64,000 bases of DNA from Myxosarcina sp. GA_180221_E-2-1-MAG-40_15 (GTDB lineage Bacteria; Cyanobacteriota; Cyanobacteriia; Cyanobacteriales; Xenococcaceae): NCBI GenBank assembly GCA_020692205.1, contig JAIMKV010000013.1, forward strand, positions 1-64,000, given 5' to 3'. Of this stretch, positions 31,943 through 35,086 are shown in pieces. Within the stretch, counting starts at the first letter, position 1, and every line of letters starts with the position of its first letter. A model generated the notes under the pieces. That model was not told the origin of the DNA, made no database searches, and was given only the letters and a program-made list of their open reading frames with translations. Position numbers and translations under genes: made by a program.

Positions 31943-34576
31943 ATGAAAAAAATGCTTGCCAACTGGCGCACGTCTTCATGGTTAGCTAGTAGTTCTCTAG
32001 ATACTCGCTATGCTCTGATCGAAGCTTGTTTAATTGGACTATTATCCGCTTTGGCTGCGGTACTGTTGAAGCAGGGGATTAACTGGCTTGGCGGATGGCG
32101 GGTTCAGACGGCCAATCTAGTTGGGGCAAAGCTAGTCCTGCCTTTAATGGGGTTAGTTATGGGTACTCTCTCGGGGGTCGTGATTCAGCTTTTATCGCCT
32201 GGGGCAGCAGGTGGCGGTATTCCTCAAGTTAAGGCGGCTTTAGCTAAATATCCGATTGTCTTGGATCTTCGCACTGCTCTAGTCAAAACTTTAGCAACCA
32301 TTTTAGTTGTCGGAGCGGGTTTTACGGTGGGTCGTCGTGGTCCTACAGTACATATTGGAGCAGCTTTGGGAGCGCAGGTTAGTCGTTGGATTCCCAACTC
32401 TCCGACTAATCGTCGTCAGATGATTGCCGCAGGGGCAGCCGCGGGTTTAGCAGCCAGCTTTAATACTCCTATTGCCGGGGTACTATTTGTCGTCGAAGAA
32501 TTGATGCGGGATATTTCTGGCTTGACTCTAGAAACGGCGATCGCCGCCTCATTTACGGGGGCGGTTGTCTCTCGCATCTTTAGCACTACCGATATTCATG
32601 TTCCCCTAGCGGTGATTGATTCGACGCGTCAGGGCAGCTTTGCTATTCCTGAAATTCCGTTTTATATTTTTCTGGGGATCTCAGCGGGAATATTGGGTGG
32701 AGTTTTTAATCGTTCCATTATTCAGGGAATGAAATTTAGTCGTGGCTTACCCTTCCCCATACCGCTCCGTATTGGTTTGGCAGGATTGATTTCGGGAACT
32801 GTCATTGCTTGGCTACCACCTTTTTTTCAAGACAACGCGGGGCTGAGAGAACTCTTGATTGCCGGACAGTTCTCTTGGCAAACTACTGCGGTAGTATTTG
32901 TAGCTCAATTTTGTTTGACCATCCTGGCATATAGTTCGGGTGCGCCAGGAGGTTTGTTTGCTCCTGCTTTGGTCTTAGGTTCTGCTTTAGGATACCTAGT
33001 TGGGATTGGGGAGGTAGCTTTAATTAATTCAGAATCTCCCTATACTTTTGCTTTTGCCGGAATGGGAGCGTTTTTTACGGCAGTGGTTAGAGTTCCGATC
33101 ACGGCAATTGTAATCATTTTTGAGATGACGGCGGACTTTAATTTAGTTTTGCCTCTAATGATTACTTGCGCGATCGCTTATATTGTTGCCGAAAGCGTTT
33201 CTCAAGGTTCTTTGTATGAGCATTTGCTCGAAGCTAGCGGGATTGAACTCACCGAAGAAAATCCCCAAAATGACTTTATGTCACAGTTAACCGCAGATGA
33301 TGTCATGGAGTCACGGGTTGAAACATTGCCCAGCAACCTGCCTTTATCAGATTTAGTTAAAGCCATGTCGCGATCGCATCATCGTGGTTTTCCCGTGGTA
33401 GAAGACGGTAGGCTGGTGGGAATTATTACTCAGTCGGATATTTCCAGCGACAGCAAAGCGACGAACGCGGTGACAAACGCTGTGTTGCTCAAGGATATTA
33501 TGACTCCTCAGCCAATCTCAGTCTGTCCTGATACTTCTTTAGCAGACGTTTTATACTTGTTAGATCGCTACCAGCTATCTCGTTTACCCGTTACTGAAGG
33601 CTCTAAACTGTTGGGAATTATTACTCGCAGCGACATTATTAAAGCCGAAGCAAAACAGTTAAATTGTGATCATCAGCCCCAAGCCAGGTTTGAACCTTCT
33701 TATCTGGTGTACCAAAGTCGTTCTCCCGCTACGGGAAGAGGACGCATCTTATTACCTCTGGCTAATCCCGAACATACCGATGCTTTATTGACCATAGCGG
33801 GGGCGATCGCCCTTGAGCATCAGTATGAAATTGAATGTCTGCGAATTATCTGTGTTCCCAATCATATCTATCCTGCCCAAGCTGAGGTAGAAACTGGCTC
33901 AGAGCGTCAATTAATGCAGCAGTTAGAAACCTGGGGCAAAGCATCAAAGATTAAAGTTCATACGCAAATTCGGATCGCCACCGATGTTAGTGAAGCGATT
34001 TTAGAAACGATTGCCAGAGAGCATATCGATTTGCTGATCATGGGTTGGAAAGGCAAAAGCTCTAGTCTAGACTCAATTTTTAGTAATATAGTCGACTCTT
34101 TAATTCAGCAAGCTCCCTGTGATTTGATGCTGGTAAAGCTTGGTTCGGCGGCTCATGCTTTTCCCCAGCAGCTTCATCTACGACACAAATGGTTAATTCC
34201 GACTACAGGTGGCGATCGCATTAATAAACTGTTGACTATCTTACCTGCTTTGGCTAATTTAAGTCGCATTCCGCCCAAAATACAGCTTTGCCAAGTATCA
34301 AAACCCGACAAATCGCCGCATTTTACCCCAGATTTTACCCAAGCTGCTGCTTTACTCAATAGCACCATGAGTTGCCCTATTATGCCGCTGCTGATTCCTG
34401 CTTATTCGGTATCACAAGCCATTATCGAATTGACCCAACGTCGAAAATATGGCTTGGTAGTTTTAGGTGCGAGCAACGAAGGGCTATTGCAAAACGTGGT
34501 TAAGGGCAATATTCCCGAAGCGATCGCGCATAATGCTAACAGCACAGTAATTATTTTTCGTAGTTCAGCAAAATAA
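31943..34576 (+). CDS. ClC-family chloride channel/transporter with CBS and USP domains
   Basis: 877 aa. The N-terminal ClC membrane domain (about 1-425) has GGGIPQVKA and GRRGPTVHIGA (130-140). Two CBS domains (about 430-570) are followed by one or two universal-stress-protein-like domains (590-877; DLLIMGWKGKSS, LVVLGASNEG). In the canonical GREGP motif the gating Glu (E148 of E. coli ClC) is Arg132 here, so proton-coupled exchange is unlikely and a channel or other coupling is plausible. The CBS-USP tail suggests control by adenine nucleotides. Confidence 0.85.
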   Translation: MKKMLANWRTSSWLASSSLDTRYALIEACLIGLLSALAAVLLKQGINWLGGWRVQTANLVGAKLVLPLMGLVMGTLSGVVIQLLSPGAAGGGIPQVKAALAKYPIVLDLRTALVKTLATILVVGAGFTVGRRGPTVHIGAALGAQVSRWIPNSPTNRRQMIAAGAAAGLAASFNTPIAGVLFVVEELMRDISGLTLETAIAASFTGAVVSRIFSTTDIHVPLAVIDSTRQGSFAIPEIPFYIFLGISAGILGGVFNRSIIQGMKFSRGLPFPIPLRIGLAGLISGTVIAWLPPFFQDNAGLRELLIAGQFSWQTTAVVFVAQFCLTILAYSSGAPGGLFAPALVLGSALGYLVGIGEVALINSESPYTFAFAGMGAFFTAVVRVPITAIVIIFEMTADFNLVLPLMITCAIAYIVAESVSQGSLYEHLLEASGIELTEENPQNDFMSQLTADDVMESRVETLPSNLPLSDLVKAMSRSHHRGFPVVEDGRLVGIITQSDISSDSKATNAVTNAVLLKDIMTPQPISVCPDTSLADVLYLLDRYQLSRLPVTEGSKLLGIITRSDIIKAEAKQLNCDHQPQARFEPSYLVYQSRSPATGRGRILLPLANPEHTDALLTIAGAIALEHQYEIECLRIICVPNHIYPAQAEVETGSERQLMQQLETWGKASKIKVHTQIRIATDVSEAILETIAREHIDLLIMGWKGKSSSLDSIFSNIVDSLIQQAPCDLMLVKLGSAAHAFPQQLHLRHKWLIPTTGGDRINKLLTILPALANLSRIPPKIQLCQVSKPDKSPHFTPDFTQAAALLNSTMSCPIMPLLIPAYSVSQAIIELTQRRKYGLVVLGASNEGLLQNVVKGNIPEAIAHNANSTVIIFRSSAK

Positions 34577-34842: not shown

Positions 34843-35061
34843 ATGAATGTCAATAGTTCCTGCCCCTGCTGCTCCCAATCAATGCTGCTGCATCTAAGTA
34901 GTCGTCATAGTTACTGGTTTTGCTCGCATTGCCGCTTAGAAATGTCCAATTCCGATGACCAGACTAGTCATCAGAAAGGTAAAGTTGCTAGGTTAAATTC
35001 AGCTTCTCTCCAAACTGCGATCGCTCCTTTAAAATCTGAACGGCCAGTAGCCGTAGTTTAA
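34843..35061 (+). CDS. Small zinc-ribbon-like cyanobacterial protein
   Basis: 72 aa with two Cys pairs, CPCC (8-11) and FCSHC (32-36), separated by a patch ending SYWFCSHCRLEM, a C4 zinc-ribbon pattern. The C-terminal half is low complexity. Small proteins with this pattern recur in cyanobacteria; function unknown. Confidence 0.65.
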   Translation: MNVNSSCPCCSQSMLLHLSSRHSYWFCSHCRLEMSNSDDQTSHQKGKVARLNSASLQTAIAPLKSERPVAVV

Positions 35062-35086
35062 AACAAGCTTAAGCTACTTTTAACGA

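Follow-up and report, generated by a model that had tools for sequence, protein, structure and literature searches.

Arginine at the external gate position of a cyanobacterial CLC-CBS-USP clade: candidate proton-uncoupled chloride conduits

The window, a 64,000-nucleotide stretch of DNA from Myxosarcina sp., encodes a CLC-CBS-USP protein that bears arginine (Arg132) where the Escherichia coli exchanger ClC-ec1 has its external gating glutamate, E148. The same substitution was found in 57 distinct proteins, which together form a single clade. By analogy with characterised CLC proteins, we consider it probable, though far from certain, that the window protein is a naturally evolved, channel-like pathway or fast uniporter for Cl-, uncoupled from protons and convergent with the mammalian CLC-K channels.

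The features of the protein are listed in Table 1. Its reading frame was confirmed to be uninterrupted. The Voltage_CLC domain (PF00654) covers residues 73-416 and matches positions 1-345 of the 346-position profile with 315 bits against a cut-off of 24.8 (E 7e-94). It is followed by two CBS stretches and a Usp domain (PF00582, 74 bits against a cut-off of 24), and Pfam thus bears out the CBS plus USP domains claimed in a preliminary description of this DNA. The C-terminal unit, for which Pfam gave no report, is probably a second USP-like domain, as predicted from the AlphaFold model. This model has a mean pLDDT of 88 and superposes on ClC-ec1 structures with a Z score of 52.2 to both 1ots_B and 6lsc (for 6lsc, rmsd 2.3 over 409 residues); the CLC fold is therefore present in the predicted model. 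The NCBIfam equivalog cut-offs for ClcA and ClcB were not reached (282.3 of 350, 255.7 of 482 and 112.8 of 425 bits).

Table 1. Features of the CLC-CBS-USP gene and protein, with window coordinates
Feature	Coordinates	Strand	Evidence or remark
CLC-CBS-USP protein, 877 aa	31943..34576	+	Open reading frame, Pfam, AlphaFold model
Lys43 at the place of ClC-ec1 D54	32069..32071	+	Offset from 1kpl alignment
GGGIP filter motif; Gly91 (32213-32215) replaces SerC (S107 of ClC-ec1)	32210..32224	+	
Arg132, codon CGT, external gate position (E148 of ClC-ec1)	32336..32338	+	HMMER alignment, codon, clade of 57
Glu186, inner proton glutamate (E203 of ClC-ec1), kept	32498..32500	+	
Tyr330 at F348 barrier position	32930..32932	+	
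GGLFAP filter motif (GxFxP), kept	32948..32965	+	
Tyr425, inner gate tyrosine (Y445 of ClC-ec1), kept	33215..33217	+	
CBS pair, about residues 448-573	33284..33661	+	Pfam; strands and helices in AlphaFold model
Universal stress protein domain, residues 600-732	33740..34138	+	Pfam
USP nucleotide loop region, residues 701-715	34043-34087	+	Third Gly replaced by Ser in window
Predicted second USP-like domain, about residues 749-873	34187..34561	+	Alternating strands and helices in model; GxSxEG...GN motif conserved

The HMMER alignment of the window protein to 1kpl passes without a gap through GRRGP of the query and GREGP of the structure. Arg132 is therefore the counterpart of E148, and the other ClC-ec1 residue numbers used below are offsets from this alignment. 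Together with the CGT codon, the gap-free match upholds the earlier claim that arginine stands in place of Glu148. The external gating glutamate, which is a hallmark of exchangers, is truly missing, as it is from channels of the CLC-K kind. Glutamate was not the right norm for comparison, however, since within the cyanobacterial family glutamine is the usual residue.

Such a motif could also come from a sequencing error, a mis-annotation or a decaying gene, and at least two Arg-type copies are indeed broken. One of them (L014/L037, G010:C260) has two in-frame TAA stops near the N-terminus; in the other (L186, G166:C1:381744-384334), the CLC gene, with gate motif GRRGP, is split into two overlapping ORFs, which reflects a frameshift or an assembly fault. 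There is nevertheless hardly any chance that Arg132 itself has such an origin, and this reading was refuted by the 57 distinct carriers (44 at 90% identity), 56 of which are longer than 800 aa. All six arginine codons are used at the gate in 56 rows (L037, with its in-frame stops, is not counted), and dN/dS lies between 0.02 and 0.16 in the eight pairs for which a ratio was obtained, with synonymous change above one per site in five of them.

A survey of cyanobacterial CLCs, proposed as a check in the preliminary description, was run on several samples. In the 214 distinct family proteins from all sources in which the gate could be read, its residue is Gln in 133, Arg in 57 and Glu in 24. Glutamate is thus the exception in the cyanobacterial CLC-CBS-USP family, and arginine defines a clade; the preliminary description had noticed neither. 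The pattern was unchanged after collapse at 98% identity (206 proteins) and at 90% (172 proteins: 107 Gln, 44 Arg and 21 Glu). The 214 proteins correspond to 216 tree rows, as two genes are each represented twice, by L194 and L054 and by L224 and L053. Among the 60 relatives searched, 57 had a match at E 1e-30, including two (G032 and G056) with a distant paralogue alone, at 28-30% identity. When 291 genomes were drawn evenly across the phylum, 104 had a match at E 1e-70, and in ten of these the match was weak (32-40% identity); of 100 regions taken from this draw, 97 had a readable gate (58 Gln, 29 Arg, 10 Glu). This draw comprised 107 match rows, from which six weak ones (32-33% identity, family f47, which is under-sampled) were left out, while the two G166 pieces were counted as one region. 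Of 145 rows, eight that lacked the gate region (L031, L040, L060, L062, L063, L183, L184 and L186) were left out, as was L004, a copy of the window. In the class set, consisting of 80 regions outside the window's order that were chosen among the class-search matches listed, 67 had Gln, 13 Glu and none Arg. In the drawn genomes, arginine is thus confined to the window's order and to one clade.

Several further observations were made in the course of this survey. A record titled as a Chloroflexaceae MAG carries an Arg-type gene that falls within the Arg clade (L050), and is probably a misassigned bin. Glu-type and Gln-type copies coexist in three genomes, G245 (L157, L175), G375 (L233, L213) and G394 (L224, L225), and G111 has two Glu-type copies. 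Among the 60 of 688 records listed in a plasmid search, two were cyanobacterial, with 49% and 48% identity. A loose DNA pattern for GRRGP, applied to 291 class genomes, was discarded because a reversed control matched about equally freely.

In a tree built without the gate and filter columns, all 57 Arg rows form one clade with SH-aLRT support of 100. When the tree was rooted on a short Glu-type row, parsimony gave Glu as ancestral, with three gains of Gln and two reversions to Glu; this Glu/Gln history is uncertain, as support is weak (76) for the deep branch that subtends most Gln rows and the rows used for rooting sit on long branches. The tree carries a long-branch warning, and no single branch separates the outgroup L188-L190 from the other rows. 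By the same parsimony, Arg was gained once, from Gln. The codons of Glu (GAR), Gln (CAR) and Arg (CGN) are single-base neighbours in the genetic code. Inside the Arg clade, identity in the CLC domain goes down to 50%, and the arginine has therefore been held over a long divergence.

A second change accompanies the arginine, which the preliminary description had not noticed. The filter serine (SerC) is Gly in 56 of the 57 Arg proteins, in two of the 133 Gln proteins (L172 and L209) and in none of the 24 Glu proteins; the one Arg protein with Ser is L193. Because each residue changed essentially once, their pairing is a single historical event. As a statistical correlation it was rejected as proof, the tree holding one independent pair.

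Published work on ClC-ec1 offers a basis for interpreting both changes. In that work, E148A abolished H+ transport and lowered Cl- throughput to about a quarter, S107G doubled the Cl- rate and cut H+ coupling threefold, and the triple mutant S107G/F348A/E148A was about 25 times faster than E148A; the CLC-K channels are described there as having Val at the gate and SerC flipped out (PMC6019066). Uncoupling, conductance, direction and regulation of the window protein were inferred as follows. The external proton-coupled gate would have been lost by natural substitution from Glu through Gln to Arg, and with the gate lost the 2 Cl-/H+ exchange cycle should not run, a loss of coupling that the E148A data predict (PMC6019066) and that lends partial support to the interpretation in the preliminary description. 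The most likely mode would be a passive Cl- conduit, channel-like, or a fast uniporter. At the outer site, the fixed positive charge may draw anions, with which a glutamate would instead compete, and replacement of the filter serine by Gly may lower the inner barrier. The cytosolic CBS and USP domains might then set opening via the nucleotide level. Driven by the inside-negative membrane potential, passive Cl- exit would need no proton coupling and have no proton cost, which would suit alkaline or saline habitats. The effect of arginine is extrapolated here from Ala mutants and CLC-K, and its guanidinium group could also bind an anion tightly and slow or block the flow.

Other positions in the family also vary. 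The D54 position is Lys in 57 of 57 Arg, 60 of 66 Gln and 3 of 10 Glu rows; in the class set, where the link is weaker, it is Lys in 58 of 67 Gln and 8 of 13 Glu rows. In simulations of ClC-ec1, D54 stabilises the protonated gate glutamate, and an A399-A432 cross-link was reported to inhibit this protein (PMC7274781). The F348 position is Ala in 10 of the 57 Arg-type proteins. Further Arg-clade-specific sites correspond, in offset numbering, to ClC-ec1 A192, R205, P206, M360, A399, I402 and L406; others are 23, 25, 61, 197 and 438, plus a gap at 506.

The residues involved in proton movement are nearly all kept. The inner proton glutamate of exchangers (Gluin) is present in 57 of 57 Arg-type proteins, as are the phenylalanines equivalent to F190 and F199, and F357 is retained in 52 and Y445 in 54; the window protein itself has all three phenylalanines. 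This speaks against the channel reading, as a pure channel would not obviously need these residues, and so do the bulky Tyr and Leu at the F348 and I356 barrier sites of the window protein. Signs of a lowered barrier between the central and inner sites, as in CLC-K channels, are therefore mixed in this protein, whose SerC position is Gly. The conserved proton-path residues would also suit a protein that is still a Cl-/H+ exchanger and moves protons via Gluin and another group, or via the arginine itself, and H+ pumping has been described as independent of a titratable residue at Gluin (PMC7253180). We regard such an exchanger as very unlikely, given that E148A abolishes H+ transport in ClC-ec1 (PMC6019066) and that no conserved new acid is found in the outer-gate segment. 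Another glutamate acting as the external gate, which according to the preliminary description would overturn its claim, was looked for over residues 18-439 and none was found. Just two acidic positions, E197 and E438, combine at least 85% conservation in the Arg clade with rarity outside it; in the AlphaFold model, E197 opens the helix that follows the inner glutamate, and E438 comes behind the last membrane helix. From CLC topology, we take neither to be at the outer gate.

The nucleotide loop of USP domains has the motif G-2x-G-9x-G. Its third glycine is replaced by Ser714 in the window protein but present in 41 of the 57 Arg-type and 119 of the 133 Gln-type proteins; the loop glycines are retained in most family members. 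This retention and the long conserved cytosolic domains would fit a protein in which the arginine plugs the outer site, leaving a closed or anion-binding Cl- sensor that signals through CBS and USP without transport. The fixed cation at the outer site, with Lys43 and its equivalents in 57 of 57, points the same way. A sensor of this kind nevertheless seems to us rather improbable, as the pore-lining residues, Gluin, GxFxP and the inner tyrosine are strongly conserved, and replacement of SerC by Gly speeds Cl- flow in ClC-ec1 (PMC6019066). The channel-like Cl- conduit or fast uniporter is retained as the preferred reading.

The genome of the window encodes two other CLC proteins, with gate motifs GPESP (L002) and GPEAP (L003). 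Both have glutamate, and the Arg protein is therefore its only CLC-CBS-USP-type member. At the filter position, L002 lacks Ser (QVLGQDF) and recalls the AtCLCe type described in PMC4746265. Comparison of gene neighbours is weak, many loci having just 1.5-3 kb of flank. The EPSP synthase downstream in the window recurs in six loci including the window, five of them Arg-type; the ParA-like and PEP-utilising neighbours are absent from the 22 largest neighbour clusters. A 72-aa Cys-rich ORF (CPCC, CSHC) downstream of the CLC gene, at 34844-35062 (+), occurs in 12 loci including the window, all Arg-type, and its Pfam matches, several of them to zinc-binding families, were all sub-threshold. In 42 loci (36 Gln, 2 Glu and 4 Arg; for example L167), the CLC gene is preceded on the same strand, at a distance of about 170 bp, by a gene encoding about 437 aa. 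This upstream gene, presumably PmbA/TldD-like, gave no functional lead.

At two Arg-type loci of genus g15 (L109 and L110), an opposite-strand ORF of 81 aa with Cys27, Cys55, Cys81 and several Trp ends within a few bases of the end of the Arg-type gene, in convergent orientation; it was not seen under the same filter in L033 and L112 of that genus. In Synechocystis, NirP1 is described with Cys at 27, 55 and 81, and the nirP1 transcript runs antisense to sll1864 and overlaps it (PMC10907346). Judged by its sequence, the 81-aa ORF fits this published description. As it is convergent with the Arg-type gene in the way nirP1 is with sll1864, sll1864 is probably the Arg-type orthologue of the window protein. 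The gene is listed as a candidate chloride exporter whose mRNA rises transiently after salt shock, the protein not being detected (PMC8670252), and its mRNA is also raised under ammonium stress (PMC10094980).

The overlap of sll1864 with the transcript of nirP1, a regulator of nitrite reductase (PMC10907346), could also suggest that the pathway, though uncoupled, carries not Cl- but an anion such as nitrate, bicarbonate or sulfate, as a uniporter or an exchanger. The SerC position sets the Cl-/NO3- preference in plant CLCs (PMC7733266, PMC4746265), and it is Gly here. The nitrate-type residue given for plants is Pro, however, and not Gly (PMC7733266). We hold this alternative to be unlikely, although it deserves some weight; the 22 largest neighbour clusters, none of which was formally annotated, did not point to a transporter for nitrate or carbon.

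To our knowledge, the characterised prokaryotic Cl- CLCs are exchangers. The transition from exchanger to channel has been studied mostly by mutagenesis. Beyond the proposed Cl- conduit of the window itself, cyanobacteria may, with a chance that we put a little below even, own a clade of true prokaryotic CLC Cl- channels derived stepwise from exchangers, with the gate arginine attracting anions and the CBS-USP region acting as a nucleotide switch. The route would have led from Glu through Gln to Arg at the gate, with Gly taking the place of Ser in the filter and, in part of the clade, Ala that of Phe or Tyr at the barrier; it would have converged on the CLC-K solution and on the engineered fast mutant of ClC-ec1. 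The gate residues suggest that the usual form of proton coupling is lacking in most of the cyanobacterial CLC-CBS-USP proteins sampled. This is relevant to how cyanobacteria export chloride and acclimate to salt, a field in which several candidates for the Cl- exporter are under discussion (PMC8670252). In the literature searched, mostly open-access, none of the matches listed was found to describe cyanobacterial CLCs with a Gln or Arg gate; likewise, no paper on Arg at the CLC gate position was found among the matches listed, none of which was on CLC by title.

Compared with known systems, the window protein resembles ClC-ec1 (ClcA of E. coli, a Cl-/H+ exchanger) in fold (Z 52.2), in sequence (31% identity) and in GxFxP, Gluin and the inner tyrosine. 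It differs in having Arg for E148, Gly for S107 and Lys for D54, in its long CBS-USP tail and in a ClcA score below the NCBIfam cut-off (282 of 350 bits). Mammalian CLC-K channels are not known to have USP domains. They share with the window protein the natural loss of the gate glutamate and a SerC out of the pore, flipped in CLC-K and replaced by Gly here, but have Val at the gate and Thr at the F348 position where the window protein has Arg and Tyr (PMC6019066). Natural loss of the gate glutamate is thus already known in CLC-K (PMC6019066), and it is reported for the plant CLC-G subfamily, for which the authors infer channel activity (PMC7733266); CLC-G belongs to a eukaryotic branch, and the likeness considered here is that of the gate substitution. 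Synechocystis Sll0855 (PDB 3nd0), a slow Cl-/H+ antiporter, is also a cyanobacterial CLC and superposes with Z 50.6; it is an antiporter by its PDB title, and its solved chain, at 466 residues, is too short to include a CBS-USP tail. For Sll1864, the passages cited above give annotation and expression only, and the likeness rests on the nirP1 neighbour. The closest engineered parallel is S107G/F348A/E148A, whose three sites are all changed in ten natural Arg-type proteins and two of which are changed in the window protein, with Arg rather than Ala at the gate and, in the window, Tyr at F348. One family thus holds a natural series, with Glu, Gln or Arg at the gate, Ser or Gly in the filter and Tyr, Phe or Ala at the barrier, which allows a side-by-side comparison.
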